DNA of 64,000 bases from Sphaerolaimus hirsutus (lineage: Eukaryota > Nematoda > Chromadorea > Monhysterida > Sphaerolaimidae): assembly GCA_964036195.1 (NCBI GenBank), contig OZ038458.1:248001-312000 (forward strand). The letters are read 5' to 3'. Every line of letters begins with the position of its first letter. The stretch's first letter is position 1. The position numbers were made by a program, and so were the translations under genes. The notes beneath the pieces were generated by a model. It was given only the letters and a program-made list of their open reading frames with translations. It did no database searches and was not told the origin of the DNA. Below, one piece after another: positions 1 to 62,718 of this stretch.

Positions 1-917
1 ATATACGTAATAAGTTGACGTAAAATGGATATTTTTGAAAGAAATCACTGCTTATAATGCTATTCCATGACTCCACAGTCATAATATGACCACAATAGAC
101 ATAACAATACATTGTCTGACTAGGGTTGGAAAAAAAACGTTTTTTTTTAACTCGATGTTTTTTTTTTAAAAAAACAACGTTTTTTTTTAAAACAACAACG
201 TTTTTTTTAAATAAAAAACGTTTTTTTTTTAAAAGCTTCCAGATATGACCTAGTGTCAACATATATAGGTATATCAGACACTGGCAATACTCTGTGATGT
301 TGAATATGACCATATAATGGCTGTGGAGCCATGGGATAGCATTATAAGTGGTGATTTGTGTCAAAAATATCCATTTTTTGTCGACATATCGTTCGTATAT
401 CGCCTTATAGTCCAATGTTCGTGACTTCAGGTAAAGTTTGGCACGGAATGGTGATCAAACAAGGTTATAAAAGGAGGTTGTTACTTTGGGAGTGAAGTTA
501 CACACTGTGGAGGTACATGGAAGCACATTACCTCAATATTATATATTACAGCAACATATGTCGGCTTATTCACCCATGGTAGCACATAGAAATGGATGTT
601 TTGATACTAAAAATGCAACAAAACCAATGAAAACAACCACCAATGTAAATTTGTGTGTGAAATTGCGCGCTTGCGCGCAAAAATTTTGCAAAATACCTAG
701 TGCTTAGTACTAAAAATTTCGGCTGATGTTTTTAAAAAAAAAAAAACATTTCGGACGTCATGTTTTTTTTATAAAAAAAAACGTTTAAAAAAAAACATCG
801 GCCAACCCTATGTCTGACACTTAACATACATATATTTTTTCTTTATTTTGGGCGATTTAAAAAAAATCATTTTTTTTAAATCAAGGCGCTCAAAAAAAAT
901 GATTTTTTCCAACCCTA
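1..917. mobile_element. Family B hAT-like MITE, left end cut by window, with a nested family A MITE
   Basis: Positions 1-120 and 811-917 match the interior and right end of the complete copy at 14931-15549. The right tip is CCAACCCTA at 909-917. The element is split by a family A insertion at 121-810. Confidence 0.8.
121..810. mobile_element. Family A hAT-like MITE (copy 1), nested
   Basis: Tips TAGGGTTGG and CCAACCCTA, subterminal poly-T/poly-A runs punctuated by ACG, and an interior of about 550 bp. Flanked by an exact 8-bp duplication TGTCTGAC (113-120 and 811-818). The uninterrupted site TGTCTGAC occurs once at 15427-15434 in the homologous family B copy, which proves the boundaries. Confidence 0.93.
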
Positions 918-2065: not shown

Positions 2066-5000
2066 CCAAGGCGATTTCATTAGAACCGGGTCCTGGCACC
2101 TTACTAATGTCCTCAGTGTGCGGCGGCAGTGAGAGTCTTTGCATTTGAGCGCGTCTCAGCTGGCCCAATAAACTTGCATTTGTGTCCAGAAGTGCATTGG
2201 TACTGGATTGTTGGCGCGGTGCCAAGTCGCGTTCTGAAGTTGGGTGGGGATGAGATTTGAATACATTTGAGATATTTGGAGGTAGATTGATGGTTTCGGT
2301 AGCTGTATAGATCTACTGTTTTTGGATAGGGGTGGAAAAAGCCTTTTTAACGACGCCGTTTTATTAGAACCAACGTTATGAAATATTAACCTAGATAAAA
2401 ATTTAGACTGTTGTTTTTCTGAAGGAAAAAACGGTTTCGATGCTTGCGTTTTTCTAAAAGATTGAAAAACATGAAATAAATATTTTCACCGATATCAATT
2501 ATATTAGGAATAGTTTGTGAACCATTTTCCGGCGATACGAAACTAAATTAAAATTTCGAACTAACCCAGGCTATCCAAAAAGCTGACATCAATGCCGACT
2601 TGTCTCAGAGAACGTAATTGTTCGAAGTCAATATCGTCCGCCTGCAAATTGTTCATGTTTTTTTTGTTGCAAAAAAGTAAAACGAAAAAAGCAAGAGACT
2701 GTAGAAATTACAAAACAGCACGCACCGTATCAGCCGCAGTATTTTTCTCAGTTTTGACCCAAGCTCCAGGCAAACTGTGAATAATGATTTTAAGCATATG
2801 AATCTAAAACAATAGAAAGTGAGGCGGTACTAAAATGCAACACTAAATTTCCGAAAAAATACTCACTCTCACGTTTTACTCACATTTACTCACGAGTAAA
2901 GATAAAAATTACTTTTACGTTTTCTGTACTCGGTACAAGTGAGTAAACGAGAAATACTTTGCATTAAAGTTTAGTTTTCAAACGGGATCCCGATCCCGAA
3001 TACCGAAAAATTTCGGGATTTTGCAGTCCCGATCCAGAAACATTAAAAAAACCAATCCCGATCCCAAAATCTGAAAATCCCAATACCGATCCCGATCCCG
3101 AAAAGTCAATCCCGTTTAAACCCGACTTTTTCCAACGCGGCTCACCCGGCCAAATGCGTGTCCATGTCTCTGCTGGTCTGCGCGTCCACAGTCGCCCAGC
3201 TGGAGTCGTAGCACGGCGCGAAGGAAGCGTAAGCGCCGTAGTCAAGGTGCCGCGCTGAGCGAATCGGTGTCGCCAATAAAGGAGCAGTCTAGTCAAGAGT
3301 TGTTGAAAGTACTTTTTTCAAAAGTAAACGTAAACGTCAAGTACTTATTTTTTACTCACACGTGCGTACAGAAAACGTAAAGTATTCATTTTTTACTTTT
3401 ACACATGAGTAAACGTGAGTAAATTACTTTTGTCCCCGGAAAACGTAAAAGTGGGTATTTTTGAAAAATTTTGCCTCAATTTTCGATCAAAATCACTACT
3501 TTTTGAACTTTTTCAGCATCAAATTCACTAGTTTATGTGTTTTTGCCTATTTTTATGCTATTTTGGATGTTTGTCCATATTTTAAGCTTTTCTCGCCCTT
3601 TGGTTCCTTTATGCCTTGAAAAAGTACAAAAAAACCCTGTTTCAAATAAGTTTTTGTACTCGCGTACTTTCAAAAAGTACTCGAGTATCCGTATTTGTCG
3701 AGTAAACGCAGATACGTTTTAACAACTATGGAGTCTACTTCTAAAAGTCCATATCTCCGAAAACGGATCGCGAAAAAATGGCATTTTTTAAGTTTAATTT
3801 CCAATTTTTTTGTCGGTGACGCTAGTCCAAAGGGCGCGCTCGTTGACTATCATAAAGCCCAAATAATGATTATAAAATGTCAAATTTTATGCCTCTGCTC
3901 TCAAAATATAGGGGCGCGGTCGCCTTTCACAACATACATACATTTGGACAGGAACGAAAAAAAAACAGGAAGAAATTTTGGGAAAAGGTAGCGTGTTATT
4001 AATGAAAAATGTTTCTCTTTCAGTGAAATAAAACCGCGACATTTCCATCTATCCACAGATTCTTAACGCAAAAACTCCAGTCAAATTCCCAGTGTGGCGG
4101 CACCGCAGCCATAAAACTCACGCGGCACATAAGGATCACTTGGCAAGGTGCCAGACGGCAGCCACTTGACCCCTCCATCTCTGTGCTGCGGCACGCGCTC
4201 ACCCAAAGTCTTGGATTCCTTCGTGCGGCACGGAGAATCGCCCACGTGCTCGGGTAGTATTATGTTCAGTTTGAGTGCGGCGAGCTGGGAGTTTGCGAGG
4301 GTTTTTTTTGTTAGATGAGGGTAGGGTTGGCCGATGTTCTTTTTTTAAAAAACGTTGTTTTTTAATAAAAAAAACACGCTGTCCGAAACGATGGTTTTGA
4401 GATTATATTTTCTCAAAATCACCCATTTCTTCAATGCTAATTGGCGTGAAGACTTGTAGGTTGAGCACACTTGCAGGGCGGTCATAATTACTTGCAGGCC
4501 GCTACAATTTGCAGAGAGGTACGGGAGCGGTCAGGCGACACGAATATATGGCACCATTCTAAATACCACGCAGTTCGCTCAAAATTACAAAATAAACCTG
4601 TGGAACTTTGTTGACGCTGCAATCATTTCGCTCAACATTTTTCTCCGCTTGAACACGCCACTCGGCAGATTGCGACCTGCGAGGGAAAAGTGACAGAAAA
4701 TTTGGTTCACAAATAATTAATATATGATAAAAACATATGTGGGGACTTCCGTTCCAAAAGTTCACAAGCGCCAAATCCAGAAAAATCGAGTTAGCTGTGG
4801 ATTCGACATCCACGTATAATTCTGCCCATTTTGGTAAAAAAATCAGTGTTATAGTTCATTTCGTTCCCGAGATACAGTGGTACCGTTTTTCAGAAAAATC
4901 ACAATTTTCATATCGAAAGTGCACATATCCATCTCAGATAGGGTTCAAACGATATCACTTTTCGATATCGATATTCGATATTTTTTCAAAATTTTCGATA

Positions 5001-8000
5001 TCGATATTCGATATTCGATATTTTTTCAAAATTTTCGATATCGATATTCGATACGATATGGACCCTCGATATCGATATTCGATACTTAAAAATGGTCGAT
5101 ATTCGATATCGATATTTCGATATTTTCGATATTCGATATTTAGCTTTTGGTATAGCAAGGCGTATTTCAAGCAGCATATTGTATTTTCATATGGTTCCAA
5201 ACATGGTTGATTATCTCTTTACTGAAAAGTACAATTGATTTTAACAAGGTTTACAATGGTCAGAATGAGAAAATCGAAGAAAAAACATGACAAATTCATG
5301 TTATTGTAACTTATAACTTTTAATTATAAGTTACAATTCATACTTATAACCCAATTGTTTAAGGGCATGTTGCAAAAAGCAACATATCAGCATTTTCTGT
5401 CTTCAAATTTGAGGTAGGTAGAGTTAAGGGAATTATTTTGGGGTCCCTCAGCCCAGGGGGCAGTCCCAAGCCCTGTAAAGTGTAAAGTAAAGTGTCAAAT
5501 GTAAAGTAAAGCGTCAAGTCAAATGTCAAATGTAAAGTCAAGTGTCACGTCAAATGTCAAATGTAAAGTAAAGTGTCAAATGTAAAGTCAAATGTAAAGT
5601 AAAGTGTCAATTGTGTATCCAAATCTCATTTTTTCGTATCCAAATCTTATGTTTTTGTATCCAAATCTTGTTTTTCGAAATAAGATTTGGATACAAAAAC
5701 ATAAGATTTGGATACGAAAAATAAGATCTGGATACACAATTGACACTTTACTTTACATTTGACATTTGACTTGACACTTGACTTCACATTTGACACTTTA
5801 CTTTACATTTGACATTTGACTTGACACTTGACTTTACATTTGACATTTGACTTGACACTTTACTTTACATTTGACACTTTACTTTATACTTTACAGGGCT
5901 TGGGATTGGCACCTGCTGGTGTTGTGGTGTTTATTCAGTTGTCATTGTGGACTGTTCACTTGTTATTATCATACTGGTCTGTGTGCTACTTATACAGCCC
6001 CCAAATGAGATGTCACTCAATGGAAGTGATCACTCACAATCACATACTCAACTGTAGTTCAGTAGGTATGTGGCCAAACCAAATACAAGAAATGTGGAGT
6101 GAGCACTCCAACAAAGATGACATTAAATACTTTACTTTTACTCATCAACTTAGGTACTATAAGCAAATCAAATTAATCACAAATATCTCAAAACAAAAAT
6201 AATAACTTAATTAAGGACATCATACAGGTTCGATATATCGAAAATATGGTCGATATTCGATATTCGATATTTTTTCAAAATTTTCGATATCGATATTCGA
6301 TATTTGATATTTTTTCAAAATTTTCGATATCGATATTCGATATTCAAAAATGGTCGATATCCGATATTCGATACGATATATCGTTTGAACCCTAAATCTC
6401 AGACCCCCTATGAAAAACAGGACTTTCATTTCGTAAGTGCACATATCCATGACGGACCACCGTAGTTTCATTTCATAAGTGCACATATCCAAAAAATAGT
6501 TTCATTTCAAAAAAAGTGCACGCGTGCTCCGGATCGCTCGCGAAGAGCCAGCCGGATTTCCCATACAAAATTAAGTTTCATTTCCAAATGTGCATACGTG
6601 AATTTCCAAATTTATTTTGCTCTATAAATCGAGTACGGGTATAAATATAGATCTGAAAATTTAGGTTTGTGTACTTCTCGAAAAGGGCTTCTCAGTGGTG
6701 TGATTGGTTTTGCCCTGCGATGCACCGTTAGGAAGTTATTTACATTTCAATTTCAAATTTACTCCTTCTTTTGGGTGGTTTACAAAATATGACATAACTC
6801 CCAAAATATTTACCAGCCGACAAAATTTAGGGACACAAAAATTGTAGACAAATGGCCGAGATATCTGAAAAGTGCAGGGCAAGCTTTGTCGCCCAAACAT
6901 GGCGCTGCCGGGCCAGCGCAAAACTTAGTAGGCGATTTTGAAAAATCGAAAAATCTGGATATGTTAACTTTTGGAATGAAAGTCCCCATGTATATTTCAA
7001 CTTAAACTTGATCGAAATGAGCGCTGGTCGACCGGACCAATATTGTTATCACATTTTGATGACTCACAATTCAAGCGATGACTAAATGCATAAAATTCAA
7101 CGATACTGAACCCGATCTAAGGAGTGCAAAAAGAAAAGAAATAGATAGAAACGAAGTTACTTTTATAGATACCGTATTTCCTCGAAATACCTCCCCCTCG
7201 TTTGACCCCCCCCCTCTCGAAACCACTATGAAACAATCACCCCCCTCGAAATACCCCCCCCCCCCCCAAATTGAGTGTAAAGAGAACGTACATGACAAAT
7301 ACTGCAGTTTGTGTTCTGCGTAGTGCAGAACACACGTTAAAACAATGTCGGAATCACGTTAGAACAGTGTTTATACCATCTACGTATTTACTAATATTAG
7401 TCTACAGGAGTCTTTACATGTCAGTTATTGATGCATTTTTCTACCCCAGCGCACATCACAAACAACGATTTTGTACTAGGATTTCAAAAAAGTTCTTACG
7501 AAATAATACCCTCCCCTCGAAATACCCACCTCCTCGTTTAACCCCCCCCCCCCTCTCGGGAGCACTATGAAACGATCACCCCCGGGGGGTATTTCGAGGA
7601 AATACGGTATATGGTTTCAAAATCGGGCAACACGAGAACGTTGTGATTTGCCCGCCAAATTGCACGTGAAATATAGCAAAATCAAACTCACTGTTCCTTG
7701 GGCGTCGGCGCTTTCTCAGCGGCTACATCAAACAAATTCAACAGAGAAGCGTCAATGTTATCAAAGAAAGGCAGTTCATGCGGCAGGTACTCCATGTGAG
7801 CCTGTAGATAAAAAAGTATATATTAAAAATAGGGTTGGAAAAAAACGTTTTTTTTTAACTCGATATTTTTTTTATAAAAAAACGTTGTTTTTTTTTTAAA
7901 CGTTTTTTTTAAAAGATCCCAGATATGACCTTGTGTCAACATATATGGGTATATCAGACAGTGGCAATACTCTGTGATGTTATATATGACCATATAATGT

Positions 8001-11000
8001 CTGTTGAGCCATGGGATAGCATTATAAGTGGTCATTTGTGTCAAAATTATTCATTTTTCGTCGACATATCGTCTGTATATTGCCTTATAGTCGAATGTTT
8101 GTGACTTCAGGTAGTTTGGCACGCAATAGTGATCAAACAAGGTTATAAAAGGAGGTTGTTACTTTGGTAGTGAAGTTACACACTGTGGAGGTACATGGAA
8201 GCACATTACCTCAATATTATATACTACAGCAACATATGACGGCTTATTAACCCATGGTAGCACAAGAAATGGATACTTTGATACTAAAAACGCCACAAAA
8301 CCAATGAAAACAACCACCAATGTCAATTTGCGTGTGAAATTGCGCGCTTGCGCGCAAAAATTTTGCTAAATACCTAGTGCTTAGTACTAAAAATTTCGGC
8401 CGATGTTTAAAAAAAAAAACATTTCGGACGTCATGTTTTTTTTTATAAAAAACGTTTTAAAAAAAAACATCGGCCAACCCTAATTAAAAAACATTGTTGA
8501 GCACTGTGCCCACTGAGGCTCCATTTTCAGCTATTTATATACGTTCTGCTAAAAAAGAAGAAAAAACGCTTTACATGTTGCGACTGCCGGAAGTTCTGTC
8601 AAAATGCACTCAAATTTCATCATGTCGCTGTATATGTATGTAAAATAGATACATATACTGCAGTCTTTGACACCAATGACGCCGTGGCGTGGCGCCTACG
8701 AATGGCGCGAGCGCCATGGCGAAACTCCCATACAACAGCTGTAAACTTTTAGGGGTGGGGCGCCGTCCCCCCGTTCGCCGGGCTCCGTAAACAATCAGCC
8801 CCCCCCCCCCCGCTCAAAAATCCAGTCTACGCAACTGATAACAACGAATGCAAAATATGCGAAATTTATCACCACTTCACAACAATCTTAGCGTAAAAAG
8901 ACACATAAAATATCCAAAATACATCATATGTAACCTTGCCGAACAGGAAATCCACGACTTGCTTGTACTTCTGCGCGGCCAAATGGTACACAGTATCAAC
9001 GGTGTTGTATTCGATCGCATTTTCGTATATCAGGTAAGCATCATTCTGAAAATATTTATTCACTAAAAACGTGTTACCAATGGCCCTGCGCACACTAGTT
9101 TTCACACGAAATTTCGAAAACTCACAAATCAGCTTAGAACGCATTTGAGTTTTCTACAATGAGGTGGCCGTCAACTCCAGTTGACAGAGATTACAAATGA
9201 CTCATTGTGGTAAACTCAAACACGTTCAAATTTCATTTATGAGATTTCTAAATTTGGTGTGAAAAATAGTGCGCGCAGGGCCATTGAAGCAGCGACACAG
9301 AGGTTAACCATACACGTAAAGTTACAAATGTAAAGTTGGCTAACTTAAATCAGCAAAATTTTAGCAATTTAACTTCACAGAATCACTGAAATTTCCTAAT
9401 ACTTTGCGTAAAGTATTACCCCCCAAACACCCCAAACGCTCTGTGTGAAATACACCCGAAAGCATGCTACCGTAATCCTAATAAAACTTTCATTTCATTT
9501 CACCGGCTATCTACCTATCTATCTATTTGGAGCAAATGAGTGATTTTGCCATAATTTTCGGTCAAAATCGCTAGACCGAACATTTTTGGCTTTTTATGTA
9601 ACACCCAAAATCGCTATTTTTAGATAACTTCGTACCGTTATCAAGAACTCACTTTGAATTGCAACAAATTGTCATATTCGTTTTTGTCAATCTTCAATCT
9701 CATAGTATACATGTCCATTGGAGTTTTAACAACATTGCTGTAGTCTGGAGCAACATCTTCAGTTACAGGGAACACAAAATACTCATCTGGGTCCTTTCTG
9801 AGAGGAAATAATTATATATTTTGAAGCAAAAAAAACATTGTCGATATTTCACCGAGGGGAGGGGCTATATCTGCTGAACCTCCCCTCTCAAAAAAAATCA
9901 GACAGATATCAATCTGGAATTTTTTCGGCTACTATCCCCTAACCCCCCCCCCCCCCCAAAAAAAAAATCGCCCAGCTATCTAACTATCCGGAGCGATTTT
10001 TTAGAAATTTTGCCCAAATTGTTGCTCAAAATTGCTACTTTTCACGCCTTTTTGTAGATTTTCACCTCCAAAATCGTTTGTACATGTTCATTATTGCCTG
10101 TTTTCGGCCATTTTGGCTATATATGTGCTTATATACCTAGTTGTGGCCATTTGTCACCTACTTTTAGCGAATTTTCTCCCTTTTCTTCCTTCTACATCCC
10201 GAAAAAGCCTATATATTGAAACCCCGCGAACCCCCCCCCAGAAAATTTTTTCAGCTATCTATCCCACCAGAGGAGCGATTTGCTATCTATCGAACCCCCC
10301 AGAGGGCCTAAATCTAGGAGACCCCTGTCTCACACACAACAAACCTCAACATGGCCCGCAAAAAGTAGTCGCACAACAACTGCATAGGCGTGTACAAAGC
10401 GAGTTCTTCACGACTGGGGGTAGGCATGACCAAATTTTCCGGTTCTGGGGTAGGTTCCTTCTCTGGCGCTGTGCTCGCTTGCGTCTGTTCAGACGGTTCA
10501 TCGCGCTGTAAATTTTCAATTCGAATGTTATTTTTCAAATTATTTTGATACATTGTACGCGAGTTTTGAAATGAATTTTGTTTTTAGATTATATTTAGCT
10601 ATTCCGGATTGAAAAAAGAAATTACAATAATGTATAGAAATTTTCTAGTAAGTTGCCTGCAGTTAAATTCGATAACGTTCTGCTAATTATAATGTTGTTT
10701 AAAAATGTTTTTTTTTTAACTCCGGCCAACCCTCCCTAGCATAGTTGTTAAAACGTAATTACGTTTACTTGATAAATACGTATACTCGCGTACTGCATAA
10801 ATATGTTTACGTTTCCTCCTGAAAACAATACCAGTACTCGCATACTCGCCTACTTTTTGAAAGTACGCGAGTACAGAAAACGTATTTTGAGGGGACAGAA
10901 AATGTCATTTTGCCAGACAGAGAGCGACAAAAATAGAACATTTTCCTAAGAAATACTTACCAGGAGAGAAAAACCCACATCTTTGATGTACAGGGATGGG

Positions 11001-14293: not shown

Positions 14294-15897
14294 CTGGAGA
14301 ATGGGTGATATTCAACGGGATTTTAGGGGCTAAATGGCGATAGAATGTGAGAAGAATCTTTTTATGGATGGAATTCATATTTTGCTTTCTTTATAGTCGA
14401 GAATCACGTGGGAAAATGAAGTTATTTGGGCCTGAAAAATAGTTGGCAACTTTCCAGAACCGTCATGAACAAGTAAAGAACGAGTGTGTCATACAATTTT
14501 TTCGTTTTTTTTTGCATATACACTTTTGGATACATAAGGGAATATGTAGATGTATCATCCATAACTACCTGAGTAATCTAATCGCGTAACTGCACCTTAA
14601 TTTGATGGCGATTTAAAATTTACATGCTATGGGAATTTCATCATTATCGCTTTTATTGATTTGAATGATTTTAGCTGTATCCACCCACTCAGATATTTTT
14701 TTGATTTTTGGCGCTTTGCCATAATTTATTTCGAAAATTTGCCGGATACGTTGCGGCATTTATTCGATTGCGTAACTCAACTGTGCGTACAGTTGGCGGG
14801 CCACGCGCGCAGTGCGGCACGGCGGCACGTTTTGGTGCCCATTTTCCTAATCCCTCATTATCATGTGTGACGCATCGATTTTGGCTGCTGCAGCGGCGCC
14901 CGCGCCTGATCTCGTAGTGTCTGTCGTGCGTAGGGTTGGCACTTGATTTTTTTAAACTGATTAAAAAAAAATCTGATTTAAAAAAAAATCAAAGGGTGGA
15001 AACTGATTTTAATTTAAAAAATCAAAAGGCAAAATTTCTGGTAGACGTGCACTAGGTATTTTGCATATTACCATTTGTGGTGTTTTCATGGGTTTTTGGG
15101 CATATTTAGTGTAAAATCTTGCATTTATTCATGTTACCATGTAATAATAAGCTGTGATTTGCTAGTGTAGTATATAATATCAAACCAATGTGCTCCCACA
15201 TACTTCTACAGTGTGTAACATCTCTGTCAATGTATTAGCCTTCTCTTACAACCTTATTTAAGCACTATTCCATGCTGAACTTCACTTGAAGTCACGAACA
15301 TTCGACAAAAGGCGATATATGTAATAAGTCAATGTAAAATGGATATTTTTGAAAGAAATCACTGCTTATAATGGTATTCCATGACTTCACAGTCATAATA
15401 TGACCACAATAGACATAACAATACATTGTCTGACACTTAACATACATATATTTTTTCTCTATACCCACATTTTTGGCGATTTTAAAAAAAATCTGATTTT
15501 AATTTAAAAAAATCAAGGCGTTTTTAAAAATTGATTTTTTCCAACTCTAGTCGTGCGGCGCGGCGCTATTTAGGGCGCCCGCAGTTCGCGTTTTCGATCA
15601 TCCTTGTTCCGTGTGCCGTTTTGCTCTACTTTCCGAAGTTCTGAAGCGTGTCTGACCAGGGCAGACGTTTCTACCTGAGTATTTTTTGCACTTATTTTCT
15701 ACCGTTTCCCGAATTAGCCCCTGCGGCTACTTTACATTACCGTTCGTGCCGCATAGTGTACATTCACGAATACCTCAGTTGCGTTCAGTGCATCAACTCA
15801 AAATACACAGATCACATGATCCATAGCGCACTGATCTACCTCCCCAACAAATCGCATACTTGGCGCAGAGCCAACTATCATCCACTAAGCAGTGAAG
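14294..15897. promoter_or_regulatory. Head-to-head intergenic region between the BRD7/9-like gene and TUBG
   Basis: The two genes diverge from this 1.6-kb interval. GC-rich blocks at about 14780-14930 and 15550-15640 are contiguous once the MITE at 14931-15549 is removed, and contain a CRE-like TGACGCA near 14867. That arrangement suggests a shared, possibly bidirectional promoter; this is inference, since no TATA box or mapped start site is evident. 14300-14780 is AT-rich with nothing recognisable. Confidence 0.4.
14931..15549. mobile_element. Family B hAT-like MITE in the divergent promoter
   Basis: Tips TAGGGTTGG and CCAACTCTA; subterminal arrays of TGATTTTTTTAAA/AAAAAATC; exact 8-bp duplication GTCGTGCG at 14923-14930 and 15550-15557. 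The interior is colinear with families A and C. Confidence 0.93.
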
Positions 15898-18800
15898 ATG
15901 CGTGAAATGGTCGTAGTGCAGTTGGGGCAGTGCGGCAACCAGGTGGGCACCGAGTTCTGGCGGACGCTGTGCTTGGAGCACGCGATCGCGCCCGACGGCA
16001 AGCTGGAGGAGCACTCGGTGCCCGGCTTGGACAGGAAGGACACCTTCTTTTATCAGGTGCCTTTTTGGGTGGGCTATTTTGGCTGAGATGTTGTCAAGTT
16101 TGTTGGGTGGAGTCGGTCAAAGCGATCAAATGTAAAATTTAAAAAATGGATAAATATAAAAAGGCAGTTTCATAGGACATTCACACATTAACATTGCATG
16201 GTGCAGAACTGGCTACTTAAAAAAGCCTCTGCCGGACCCTCTCGAATGTTCTGTAAAAGGTAAAATATCGAACGAAGTGTACAAAAAAAATTAACATTTT
16301 CTAGGTCTTAACACTTCGCTTGACATTTTACTGTGCGTTTTATGTCTGATTAGTGGCAAATCATAATTCACTGCCAATTTGTAACCACATTGAAAAGTTT
16401 TGTGTATAGGCTGACGACTTGCACTACGTGCCGCGCGCCGTACTGGTCGACTTGGAGCCGCGCGTCATCAACAACATTTTCCAGTCTGACTTCAAGCATT
16501 TGTTCAACAGGTTCGGTCATTCTTGTCAATTGAGTTGCCATTTGACAAGTGCTGCACTTGGCAGTGGCAGTGGGATTGTATTAGGGGATCAATGGCAAGA
16601 TTTTTGAAAATTGTGATCGTGACTAGGGATGGCAAGCGCTTTTTTTTAAGCGCTTTTTAAAAAAAAAACGCCGCTTTTTTTTAAAAAAAAGCGCTAGGGT
16701 CCCAGCGCTTTTTTTTAAAAAAAAGCGCCGGCAAAAAATTTTGTAGTTATGCACTAGGTATTTTGCTATTTTTTGTGCACAAGCGCAAAATTTCACATGC
16801 AAATTACCACTGGTGGCTGTTTTCATTGGTTTTCTGGCATTTTTAGTGTCATTGCTTCTATCCCTGCATGCTATCATGTGATAATAAGTTGTGATATGTT
16901 AGTGTAGTATAGAATATTCAGCCAATGTGCTCCCAAATACTTCAACAGTGGGAAACATTAGTCTCAATGTTTTAGCCTTCTCTTATAGCCTCATTTATAA
17001 GCACTATTTCATGCCTAACTTCACTCGAAGTCATGAAACATTCACAAACTGCGATATACATGTTTAGTCAACATAAAAAAGTAAATTTTTTTGGCAGAAA
17101 TCACCACTGATCATGTTATCCAATGACTACACAGCCATTATATGGCTATATATCATCACAAGTACTGCCACTTGTCTGATATACCTGTATATATTGATAC
17201 AGAACCATATTTGGGAGGTTTTTAGGGAACGTCTCAACATTTTTTGAAAAAAAGCGAAAAAAGCGCGTTTTTTTAAAAAAAAGCGGGCCGTTAAAAAAAG
17301 CGCTTTTTTTCCATCCCTAATCGTGACAGATAATCATGGAAATTGTGACTGGGAAAAACTGGGGACAGCGAGTATAAAACGGTATTGGGTTTCCGGGTTT
17401 ATTCCATTTGAACCATACTTTACACATACTTGGTCAGAATGTGGTTTAAGGTTTCCACAGTAAAATTTCTGTTAAACCAGGTATTTTATAAAAGAACACA
17501 AAAATGAATTTTTCAGTGTATACTAGGGTTGAAAAAAAACGTTTTTTTAACTCGATGATTTTTTATATTAAAAAAAACGTTTTTTTTTAAATAAAAAACG
17601 TTTTTTTCAAAAGCTCCCAGATATGACCTTGTGTCAACATATATAGGTATATCAGATAGTGGCAATACTCTGTGATGTTATATATGACCATATAATGTCT
17701 GTGGAGCCCATGGGATAGCATTATAAGTGGTGATTTGTGTCATAAATATCCATTTTTCGTTGACATATCGTTCGTATATCGCTTTATAGTCGAATGTGTG
17801 TGACTTCAGGTAAGGTTTGGCTCGGAATAGTGATGAAACAAGGTTATAAAAGGAGGTTGTTACTTTGGGAGTGAAGTGACACACTGTGGAGGTACATGGA
17901 AGCACATTAACTCAATATTATATACTACAGCAACATATGACGGCTTATTAACCCATGGTAGCACATAGAAATGGATACTTTGATACTAAAAATGCCACAA
18001 AACCAATGAAAACAACCACCAATGTCAATTCGTGTGTGAAATTGCGCGCTTGCGCGCAAAAATTTTGCAAAATACCTAGTGCTTAGTACTAAAAATTTCG
18101 GCCGATGTTTTTAAAAAAAAAAAAAACATTTCGGACGTCGTTTTTTTACAAAAAAAAACGTTTAAAAAAAAACATCGGCCAACCCTAGTGTATACTGCCA
18201 ATATTTGTTTCTCAAATGTACCGTTACAAATAGGTTACGTTTTGGGCCCCACACATCGACACCAAATGTCAACTGGTTCCGTTCCTAATTCAAAGATTGT
18301 GTTTGAACGTCGTTCATCCACTCATCAGCACGCTTTGAGTCGGGATCGGCACCATTTGACATTTGGTGTCGCTGTCAACTAGCGTGTGTGGGCCCTAGGG
18401 TTCAAACGGGATTGACTTTTCGGGATCGGGATCGGGGGATCGGGGTCGGGATCGGGATTGGGGTTTCGGGATCGGGATCGGGATTGATATTTTGAGATTT
18501 CGGGATCGGGATCGGGATTGGCCGGGATTGGGGTCACGGGATCGGGATCGGTATTGGCATTTTTTCGGAATCGGGATTTGGGTCTAGGGATAGAGATTTT
18601 CATCACTGTTCTGGCATTCACAGTTGTTCATCAAGGTATCAAAACACTGTTGGATGCCAGAAAAGTGACATAAAATGGACGCTGGGGGTTTGCGTTCACA
18701 TTTTTTGCACGCAAAAATGTCATTTTTCACTTTTTATAATTTCCACTATTTTTTCCGGGATCGGGATCCCGGACTTGGGAGATTCTCGGGATCGGGATCG

Positions 18801-21800
18801 GGATTTGAAAGTTTTCGGGATCGGGATCGGGATTGGTATTTTTGGATTTCGGGATCGGGATCGGGATTGGGATCGGGACTGCTAAGACCCGGAATTTCAC
18901 GGGATCCGGGATCGGGATCCCGTTTGAACCCTAGTGGGCCCTTAGTGTTCGCCTCCAAACCGACAACGCTTTTTGCCCAGAGAAAACGTTTACGTGTCGG
19001 CGGACGGGGGTGGCGCGGGCAACAGCTGGGCCAACGGCTACAGCCAGAGCGCCAACTGCATCGAGGCCATATTCGACACGCTCGACAGGGAGCTCGACAA
19101 CTGCGACTCTGTGGAGGTCTGCCGCAGTAAAACCTCGTGTAGAATGCCTTTGAAAATGTCAAACAACCGGTAAAAAATATTTGTCATGTTACAGGGCACA
19201 GACCGTTGTACACGAGATTTGACACTTTGCATGGCATTATACAGGCTCTGGGAGTGGCACCTGTGCAGGTGTACCATTCAATTTTCAAGAGCGGGGGTGT
19301 CTCTTAGAGGGTGTTGAATTTTTTTGTCATGTGGACTGGTGTATTTATTTGTTTTTGCATATTGCTCAGTGCATAATGTTGAATAATTATAAAGGATTGG
19401 CATCCCCCCCGTTCCGATAGTTTTTTGTTGGGATTGGAAACGTCCCTTTATTATTCCTTTTTGCAACATTTACGTTTTTCAACAAACCAAAAACTAAGGT
19501 CAAAAGACATTCCAGTCAATGCAAAGAGTTCAATGCGTCGCGCGTTTTTTCAAACCAACACATCTTCATTGTCGAATCACTCGATAAACGTATTTTCGAA
19601 AAACCAACATTCAAGCGCTCCGGTTTAAAAAAACCTTCACGTTTTTAAAAACCCGCTGAAAAAACGCCGACCATCTCTATTCAATACAAAAAACCCATCC
19701 CCAAACACTTCACAATCACAGGCACTGACCCTAGTTCACTCGATCGCCGGGGGCACCGGCTCCGGTCTGGGCAGCTACCTATTGGAGCGCATCGCAGACA
19801 GATATGCAAAAACGCTCCTGCAGACCTACAGTGTGTTTCCGAACCAGGATGATAGTAGCGATGTGGTCGTGCAGCCGTATAATGCACTTTTGACCCTGAA
19901 TAGATTGACCCAGCATGCGCACGCTGTGGTCAGTTTGGGGTTGAATAATTTTGTTGTTTTTAAAAACGAAGTTTTAAAAACGTTTTTTTAAACCGTTTAT
20001 TTTAATAGCTCCCAAATGTGGTTTCGAGTTAACATTTACTGGTATATCAGATCATACTTTGTTATTGTATTTAAATAAATATGAAGCTATAGAGTAGAAT
20101 GGCTGTGAAGCGATGATATACATTATAAGTGGCGATTTCTATTGAAAAAATCCACTTCCATATTGGCTTATTTGACAGGAGTGGCCAAACTTTCATTTGA
20201 CGCAAAATTCAATTTTTCAGGTAGTGGTGGATAATAAAGCGTTGACGACCGTGGCTGAAGATCGTTTGAAGCTGGAAAATCCAGATTTCAGACAAATCAA
20301 CACATTGGTCTGTTGGGGGGAAACTTTTTTTGGCTTGTGTGTTCGAGTGCCACCGAAAATAGATGAAAAATATTTATTGGAAACGTATCGAAACTGGCGC
20401 ATAATTTTCTATTGTCAAAATTCATGGAAAATGCCCTGTAAAATGACAAACGAGTTTGCAGGGAATTTTTGCATGACTTTTGACACTTTGCATGACATTT
20501 GACGCTTGACATTGAACAGTGTCTGCGGGTGCCCCCTGGTAATCTAATCCACTGTCACCTCGACCTAGGGTTGGCACTTGAGTTTTTAAACTAATTTTTT
20601 TAAATCTGATTTAAATTTGAAAAAATCAATTTAAAGAAATAATTGATTTAGAAAAAAAATCAACGCGTTTAAAAAATCGATTTTTTCTAACCGTACCTCG
20701 ACCCACCCCCCAGATCAGCCGCATAATGGCCGCCTCAACGGCGACTCTGCGCTACGGGACCCCCCTGTACGGGGAGCTGAGCAGTCTGCTGGCGCCGCTG
20801 ATCCCCGTGCCGCGGCTGCACTTCCTCTGCACCGGCTACACCCCCCTCAGCGTCGACTTGCTCAGCGTGGCCCCCGCTGCCGTCGTGCAGCCCAGCGTGG
20901 CCCAGGCTAGGGTTGGTGGGACTTTGGGGGCAGGGGTCTCCAGGATTTTGGCCCTCGCGGGGGCTGGATAGATAGCAAATCGCTCCTCCGGAGGGATAGA
21001 TAGCTGCAAAATTTTCTGGGGGGGGCTGGCGGGGGCACAATATATAGGCTTTTTCAACGTTAAGAAGGCAGAAAGGGGAAAAATCGCTAATAATCAGTTA
21101 AACGTAGCCAAAAGTAGGTATAAAATGGCTAAAAATAGGTATATAACCATTTATATAGCCGGAAAGCACGATTTTGAAGGTGAAAAACTATAAAAAGGTG
21201 CAAAATTAGTGATTTTGAGCGAAAATTAGGGCAAAATTTCTCAAAAACCACTCCAGATAGCTGAGCGATTTGGGGGGGGGGGGTTGGGGGTAGCCAAAAA
21301 TTTTGCCTCGGGATAGATAGATAGCTGAGCGGCCTCCGGGATAGATAGATAGCTGGCCGATTTGGGGGGGGGGCAGCCCCCCCCCCCCCCTAGGAGACCC
21401 CTGTTTGGGGGGCCCTGTGCCATTATGCATGTAAATCGATTATGCATGTAGATCCAGAACGCATTTAACTAAACCCGTCATGCGATAATATGCAATAAAA
21501 CACATGACCTAGTGATTTTAAAGGTGAAAATCTAGCGTGAAAGTATTAAAATTAGCGACTTTGGGTGAAAATTAGGGTAAAATTGCTCAAAAGCGCTCCG
21601 GATGGTTAGATAGCTAAGCAATTTGCTTGGGTTCTGTTCAGGGAAAAGTAACCAAAAGAATTGGCTCTGGTATAGATAGATAGCTGGGCAGTTTGGGGTG
21701 GGAAACCCGCCACCTTTCTTACCCCTGCGGGTATAATGTATCTATAATGGATGTATATGCATAATGCGTTTACATGCATAATAGGCCTTACCCGGGGGGA

Positions 21801-38216: not shown

Positions 38217-38886
38217 TAGGGATGGCAAGCGCTTTTTTTCAAGCGCTTTTTTTTTTAAAACGCCGCTTTTTAAAAAAAAAATCGCTAGGGTCCCAGCGCT
38301 GTTTTTTTTTAAAAAAGCGCTGGCAAAAAATTTTGTACGTATGCACTAGGTATTTTGCTATTTTTCGTGAGCAAGCGCGAAATTTCACATGCAAATTACC
38401 ACTGGTGGCTGTTTTCATTGGTTTTGTGGCATTTTTATAGTCATTGCTTCTATTCCTGCATGCTATCATGTAATAATAAGTTGTGATATGTTAGTGTAGT
38501 ATAGAATATTCAGCCAATGTGCTCCCACATATTTCTACAGTGGGAAACATTGGTCTCAATGTATTAGCCTTCTCTTATAGCCTTATTTATAAGCACTATT
38601 TCATGCCTAACTTCACTTGAAGTCATGAAACATTCACAAACAGTGATATACATAATGAGTCAACAAAAAAGTAATTTTGGGCGGAAATCACCACTTATCA
38701 TGTTGTCCCATGACTACACGGCCATTCTATGGCTATATATCATCACAATTGCTGCCAATTGTCTGATATACCTGTATATATTGATACAGAACCATATTTT
38801 GGAGCTTTTTAGGGAACGTCTGGACATTTTTTGAAAAAAAGCGAAAAAAGCGGGGCCGTTAAAAAAAGCGCTTTTTTCCATCCCTA
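38217..38886. mobile_element. Family C hAT-like MITE (copy 2)
   Basis: Tips TAGGGATGG and CCATCCCTA; left flank GTTGCATT (38209-38216), right flank GTGCATT (38887-38893), the latter missing one T. A family D element follows directly. Confidence 0.9.
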
Positions 38887-61880: not shown

Positions 61881-62718
61881 CAGAGTTGCGAAAACGTATT
61901 TACGTTTACCCGAAATACCCGGTTATTCGGGTATTTATACTTACGTTTACGTTTACGCTTTCCAAAAATACCGTTACGCTTTGTTACGTTTTCCTGGCAC
62001 AATTACCCGGGTACCAGAGAAAACGTAAAAATATGCTACACGGAACTGTTATTGTTTGACAAATGTAGTGTATTATGATGAGTTCAACATGTTCTAATGT
62101 TGAGGAGTTCTAATTCCGCAATTGGAGAACTCAAACACCAATTTGTAAGTGAAAACTAAAAATTTGAAGGAAAGTATTTTTTGTGAGGTAGAACTGAAAT
62201 GCGAATAAAAAGTCAAAGACATTTCAAGTGTTTTCTCATGACTGGCCATTTGTCGTTTAACTCGCCATTTAACTTACAAATTTACTTTTCTTTAAATTTT
62301 TACTTGCCATTCAACTTGCCTTTACTTCTCACTCATAAATTTTTTTTAGTTCTCCTGTTATGGAATTGGCACCTTATAGTTGACACCCACTAGTTGACAA
62401 TGACGCAAAATGTGAACTCCAATCCCAATTCAATACCCCGATCCCATCATTCTTAATATATAACCAATACAGGTAAGCAGAACATGTCGATGATGGGGAT
62501 CATATGAACATCATTAATGTTGTTAAAAAACCCATTGTGTTTTTCGTATTCTCTGATAGCGGAAGCACTTAATATAATTTTTACGTTTACGTTTTATTTT
62601 ACGTTTTCCCCGGTATTTTCAAAATACCTTACGTTTTAGTATTTATACTTTTGATTTCGAAAAGGTATTTACGTTTACGTTTACGTTTTCCAAAAATACC
62701 AGTATTTGTACAACTCTG
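61881..62718. mobile_element. Family K hAT-like element, private to duplicon copy 2
   Basis: Tips CAGAGTTGCGAAAACG and TTTGTACAACTCTG with ACGTTTACG/CGTAAACGT arrays. Exact 8-bp duplication GTTTTTAT at 61873-61880 and 62719-62726; the empty site is at 26287-26294 in copy 1. An inner repeat with GGAGTTCTAATTCCG-type ends lies at about 62100-62370. Confidence 0.94.

Follow-up and report, generated by a model that had tools for sequence, protein, structure and literature searches.

The window analysed here is the whole stretch of 64,000 nucleotides from the nematode Sphaerolaimus hirsutus (contig OZ038458.1, positions 248,001 to 312,000, forward strand). By sequence comparison it holds six hAT-type elements of 619-696 bp each (A1, A2, A3, B1, C1 and C2), together with interrupted, fragmentary and reduced copies:

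1..120, plus strand: left part of the B copy into which A1 is inserted, truncated at the edge of the window, 95% to B1 385-504
121..810, minus strand: element A1, inside a B copy; target site duplication (TSD) TGTCTGAC
811..917, plus strand: right part of that B copy, including the B right arm, 80% to B1 497-619
4322..4388, plus strand: A-type left arm fragment including the tip, 85% to A1 629-690
7830..8482, minus strand: element A2; TSD ATTAAAAA
14931..15549, plus strand: element B1, words YGA (TTGA/CTGA) before the T-tracts at both ends; TSD GTCGTGCG
14931..15048, plus strand: B1 left arm, from tip to core landmark, inner limit approximate (from sequence and family slots)
15475..15549, plus strand: B1 right arm, inner limit approximate (from sequence)
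16624..17319, plus strand: element C1, words YGC (GCGC/CCGC); TSD ATCGTGAC
17524..18187, minus strand: element A3, words YG (CG/TG); TSD GTGTATAC
20566..20695, plus strand: arm-only B-type element of 130 bp without core; exact TSD CCTCGACC
38217..38886, plus strand: element C2; imperfect TSD GTTGCATT / GTGCATTC

All six elements proposed by a previous reading of the DNA made from the sequence alone (the sequence-only reading) are real, and their tips match (both ends read TAGGG[AT]TGG, save for a single decayed base each in A3 and B1). The A elements lie in reversed orientation relative to the B and C elements. The common core claimed by that reading was also borne out, the interiors being colinear with pairwise identities of 72-74% (A-C), 78-79% (B-C) and 72-76% (A-B), and the core landmark CACTAGGTATTTTGC recurring genome-wide. 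The TSD is 8 bp long and exact at five of the six elements, and imperfect at C2. Since the 130-bp B-arm element has an exact TSD of its own, arms without a core have moved. At window 1-917 A1 lies within a B copy, and at two other loci, L024 and L026, B copies are nested in A-like copies, there without a clean 8-bp duplication; the word types therefore overlapped in time. Judged by eye, a tubulin-like coding sequence with an apparent intron lies between B1 and C1 (about 15898-16510). Beside A3, at 18253-18375, stands an inverted repeat whose arms of 43 nt are 84% complementary; it is possibly another small element.

Members of the hAT superfamily have short terminal inverted repeats of the form YAGGG and a target bias nTnnnnAn. 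The tips of the elements are of this type, and the duplications agree as well. Among 62 tip pairs, for which TSDs were not used in detection, 49 had exact 8-bp duplications, nine had one mismatch and four had five or more; exact duplications of at least 9 bp were found in 0 of the 62, and a control with re-paired flanks gave 0 of 62 duplications at one mismatch or fewer. The 49 exact TSDs preferred G at position 1 (23), T at position 2 (28), A at position 7 (30) and C at position 8 (29). With less than 700 bp, no long frame and 8,819 genome matches to the core landmark at up to one mismatch, versus 23 for the pattern read backwards, the elements are MITEs. The longest stop-to-stop frames, lying mostly inside B1, C1 and A3, span 68-91 codons (judged by frame length). 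We conclude that the elements are non-autonomous hAT-type transposons.

The genome assembly comprises 348 Mb in 762 contigs. From 100 listed landmark matches of the 8,819, taken in contig order, 58 regions were fetched, and the sample was enlarged by the best-matching relatives of copies from A, B, D and E and by arms retrieved with an E2 and an F query, ten copies per query. The 133 core matches yielded 129 cores of sufficient length, which together with 20 arm pairs make 149 elements; best-match sampling favours similar copies, and the sample gives no family sizes. Contigs C5, C8, C10, C11 and C12 are absent from all genome-wide match lists, unlike other low-numbered contigs, and may be small, masked or of other origin.

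The core tree revealed further families on the same core, namely D, E1, E2 and F, plus an older A' beside A. On a tree balanced to no more than 14 rows per group (72 rows, drawn from 126 cores of at least 330 bases), B (100/100), C (100/100), D (100/96), E1 (100/98) and A (99/95) are single clades. E2 is not monophyletic because L076, labelled E2, joins E1; F is represented by one core only (L132), and the odd copy L110 stands without group.

Each end of an element opens with the tip, behind which the slots stand in fixed order; every slot is a short word with a T-tract after it. Immediately before the T-tract stand YG (CG/TG) in A, A', E2 and F, YGA in B, YGC in C, YGTC (TGTC/CGTC) in E1, and GG or GGG in D, all of them variants, by one or two bases, of YG with a following T. 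The same word stands in both orientations, and the lengths of the T- and A-tracts vary widely among copies. Across families the consensus sequences of the arms are colinear all the way from the tip to the core; they are weak for the E1 right and the D left arm (3 rows), and the B right arm was read from single copies. The right arm runs A-run, word, T-tract, family linker, word, T-tract, the linker being AACGACCC in E2, F and E1 copies, AACGGCCC in C, CAACGACAG in D copies and AACTCGA in A. The linkers before slot s5 of the left arm (CATCGAAA, GTCCGAAA, GTGGAAA, GTCCCA) are unlike those of the right arm. Between families 1-4 bases differ per slot, and the linkers are slot-specific and largely common to families. 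Judged by this alignment, the A, B and C end sets are one array with different words and not unrelated replacements; the three interchangeable sets of the sequence-only reading thus turn out to be colinear word variants of one array, which occurs in more families (D, E1, E2 and F). A search for the same arms on other cores, run on 54 tip pairs whose duplications are exact, gave none, the sole 'NOCORE' flag (window 7830) being an A copy missed by the regular expression.

The derived words form one clade each on the core tree, and the YG copies do not form one; forcing the YG rows together was rejected (p-AU 0.008, in a test picked after the tree was seen). Since the YG copies are not one clade, it is simplest to regard YG as ancestral and the other words as derived from it on four separate occasions. 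The five word types require four changes on the core tree, which is the minimum. The occurrence of one word type in several core clades means that word and core are separable, and the restriction of each derived word to a single clade means that descent was vertical with few switches. Strict clustering of cores by array type with deep divergence, which had been named as evidence against array switching, was thus half borne out, each derived word being a single clade. Long stems lead to B (0.13) and C (0.07), and no order of events can be seen on them. The E1 stem (0.019 + 0.030, about 0.05 substitutions per site) is accompanied by the same new base at 6 of 7 scored slots.

The derived word occupies nearly all scored slots in both arms, the exceptions being s6 in E1 and s5 in D, where CCG was kept in 9 of 11 copies. 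With slots missed by the regular expression excluded, so that n differs per slot, the new C of E1 was present at s4 in 8/8, s5 in 14/14, r1 in 5/5, r2 in 7/7, s1 in 6/9, s2 in 5/7 and s6 in 0/7 cases. The corresponding counts for C in E2 and F, with L076 and L135 included, were 0/24 (s4), 2/19 (s5), 0/19 (r1), 1/21 (r2), 0/16 (s1), 1/14 (s2) and 0/15 (s6). Two exact slot patterns, which detect well-kept copies only, were applied genome-wide. A pattern spanning r1 and r2 with C or T allowed found 95 arms, 15 of them C/C, 80 T/T and none mixed. Among 100 listed of the 102 arms matching an s4 and s5 pattern, 10 had both slots switched, 87 neither and 3 were mixed; both sets were counted by eye. 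In a hand-entered table of majority words, agreement within families exceeded that in every one of 200,000 permuted tables.

Some copies carry both states. L076, sister to E1 (96/90), is switched at s2 and s5 and unswitched at s1 and s4 (s1 and s2 read by eye), L135 within E2 is switched at s2 alone, and three copies within E1 (L031, L117 and L129) miss the new base at s1 or s2. L076 and L135 have the form of expected halfway states, which decay or conversion could mimic.

The sequence-only reading had held that both ends of an element always match. In automated typing, 99 of the 149 elements were typable on both arms (A 37, B 28, E2 9, F 8, E1 8, C 4, D 3, A' 2; 65 of the 99 are A or B), and 92 of the 99 agreed. 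The claim therefore stands as a rule with seven exceptions: three with 'none' on one arm (L073, L085, E2_L163), three typed on one or two motifs (L031_1501, E2_L159, F_L181) and a D/YG mixture (L102). Although the automated procedure flagged these seven as hybrids, motif counts revealed no clear left/right hybrid among them.

A second hAT group, with tips CAGAGTTG, was found to differ in the same respect, the repeated word near both ends being ACG or GCG/GTG depending on the copy in otherwise similar ends. In the copy at window 61881-62718 and in L042, one end carries three ACG words and the other a palindromic pair of them, a pattern that L045 repeats with small decay. L044 has GCG at 5 of 5 places, L064 (one end) and L059 (the other end) agree with GCG, and L061 has GTG at one end. 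Seven more ends with these tips (six loci and the window) represent other subtypes, and L060 is mixed. In this group, too, the word has changed at both ends in the manner described above.

The N-terminal DNA-binding domain of known hAT transposases is of the BED type. The words described here are most likely, by analogy, binding sites of such a domain in the transposase that mobilised the elements. In Hermes, AAG(T/C) repeats close to the ends are bound by the BED domain, and a helping role has been suggested for the AT-rich DNA that follows the word (PMC10368747). Like the elements described here, Hermes has a short word in both orientations near the tips and an 8-bp TSD type; it differs in being one element with one word, AAG(T/C), and no series of families with switched words is described in the accessible part of that report (PMC10368747). 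Domains of the BED/Hermes type derived from hAT elements prefer mostly CGG or CGC, with some GCGC or AT-rich, and for four hAT proteins the motifs match the subterminal regions of their own elements, according to the portions of the study at hand (PMC8097297). These specificities, of CGGBP / hAT-19 type domains, resemble the words found here; they were obtained on the protein side in other species (PMC8097297), and no such domain was found here for our elements. The Herves transposase, another hAT enzyme, binds short repeated subterminal motifs, and the same motif occurs at both ends as in our elements, while in the available text Ac and Tol2 are described as having different motifs at their two ends; all three, unlike the families described here, are single elements (PMC3143072). 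The proposal that subterminal arrays are likely transposase sites thus finds support by published analogy.

The published binding of words by hAT and BED domains leads us to infer that the words follow the specificity of the transposase and that the slots changed singly. The word families are probably best explained by a substitution of slot after slot that followed a change in transposase specificity. Transposase variants with shifted specificity would favour copies that carry matching words, and point mutation together with selection for mobility would change the slots singly until most of the array had been rewritten. MITE lineages might in this way split into sets, each served by a different transposase. 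The mixed copies, on which the slot-by-slot account draws, could be decayed copies instead of intermediates.

The same word distribution might have arisen by concerted evolution without selection, in which very short conversion tracts, slippage or template switching at T-tracts spread a word among the slots. The T- and A-tracts do offer short homology beside every word, the word occurs in both orientations, and tract length is highly variable among copies. However, the linkers adjoining the words have stayed slot-specific, so that tracts ending within a few bases would be required at almost all slots, and some slots (s6 in E1) never switched; we regard this explanation as unlikely. The sequence-only reading had envisaged wholesale replacement, in which a new array is gained at one end and hairpin-templated repair copies it onto the other, so that both arms switch at once. 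The agreement of the two arms in 92 of 99 copies would be expected under such copying, but the linkers differ between left and right arm and are yet common to families, only 1-4 bases differ per slot, unswitched slots remain in E1 and D, and mixed slots occur within one arm of L076, which stands beside E1, and of L135. Copying of one end onto the other explains neither the kept linkers nor the unswitched slots nor the mixed copies, and the replacement model is, in our view, quite improbable.

Simple vertical descent from few master copies, with word differences that are irrelevant to binding, would account for the observation that the core clade predicts the word type, and MITE bursts can begin from single copies. 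The same T-to-C change at 6 of 7 scored slots on the E1 stem is unexpected for independent neutral substitutions, and the permuted word tables never reach the agreement seen within families, which renders such descent very improbable. In other transposons, subfamilies can swap their ends by ectopic recombination, Galileo of Drosophila mojavensis being an example with 12 chimeric among 170 copies in the available text (PMC3573991). As in our families, the ends are the most variable part of the Galileo subfamilies, and multiple sites have been proposed in them; Galileo differs in belonging to the P superfamily, in its long TIRs and in the exchange between copies (PMC3573991). Here the words change in place within arms that are colinear variants and not foreign blocks, and 0 clear hybrids were found among the 99 copies typed on both arms, so that we give hardly any credence to end exchange. 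Slot-by-slot substitution remains the reading that we prefer.

One ancestral word, four small switches through nearly all slots of both ends, copies caught in between, and a second hAT group that underwent the same process may together, as we suggest tentatively and at somewhat less than even confidence, be the record of a transposase's recognition code being rewritten, in which coexisting words possibly form separate channels by which a MITE lineage could follow particular transposases or escape them. The change of a recognition word in an element with many sites is a hard case of protein-DNA coevolution, for which these families provide a core tree with word states ordered along it, together with mixed copies. 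If slot-by-slot switching is the true reading, MITE ends alone would predict transposase specificity. No description of such switching was found in the literature on subterminal repeats, specificity, coevolution and hAT MITEs, in a search that lay mostly outside subscription journals.

As no partner transposase was found, the transposase as driver of the word changes is itself something that we infer. All 28 matches to PF05699 in the genome were scanned for tips together with about 1.5 kb on either side, and none lay inside an element with the ends described here. L058 was considered as a partner, because a core fragment lies 0.7 kb from its hAT domain, and was rejected since the domain belongs to another group. 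A genome profile search with PF10683 gave 0 matches, and its controls were equally silent; zf-BED gave eight genome matches, none linked to these elements. Six of these eight lie within about 22 kb on contig C1 (7466186-7488779), all on the plus strand, and a seventh about 190 kb further. The group to which L058 belongs is a further hAT group (L058-L060, L063 and L066) with TAGGGTGTCAAC tips, TTTCCG-type end arrays and a remnant hAT domain, the copies of which are about 97-99% identical to one another.
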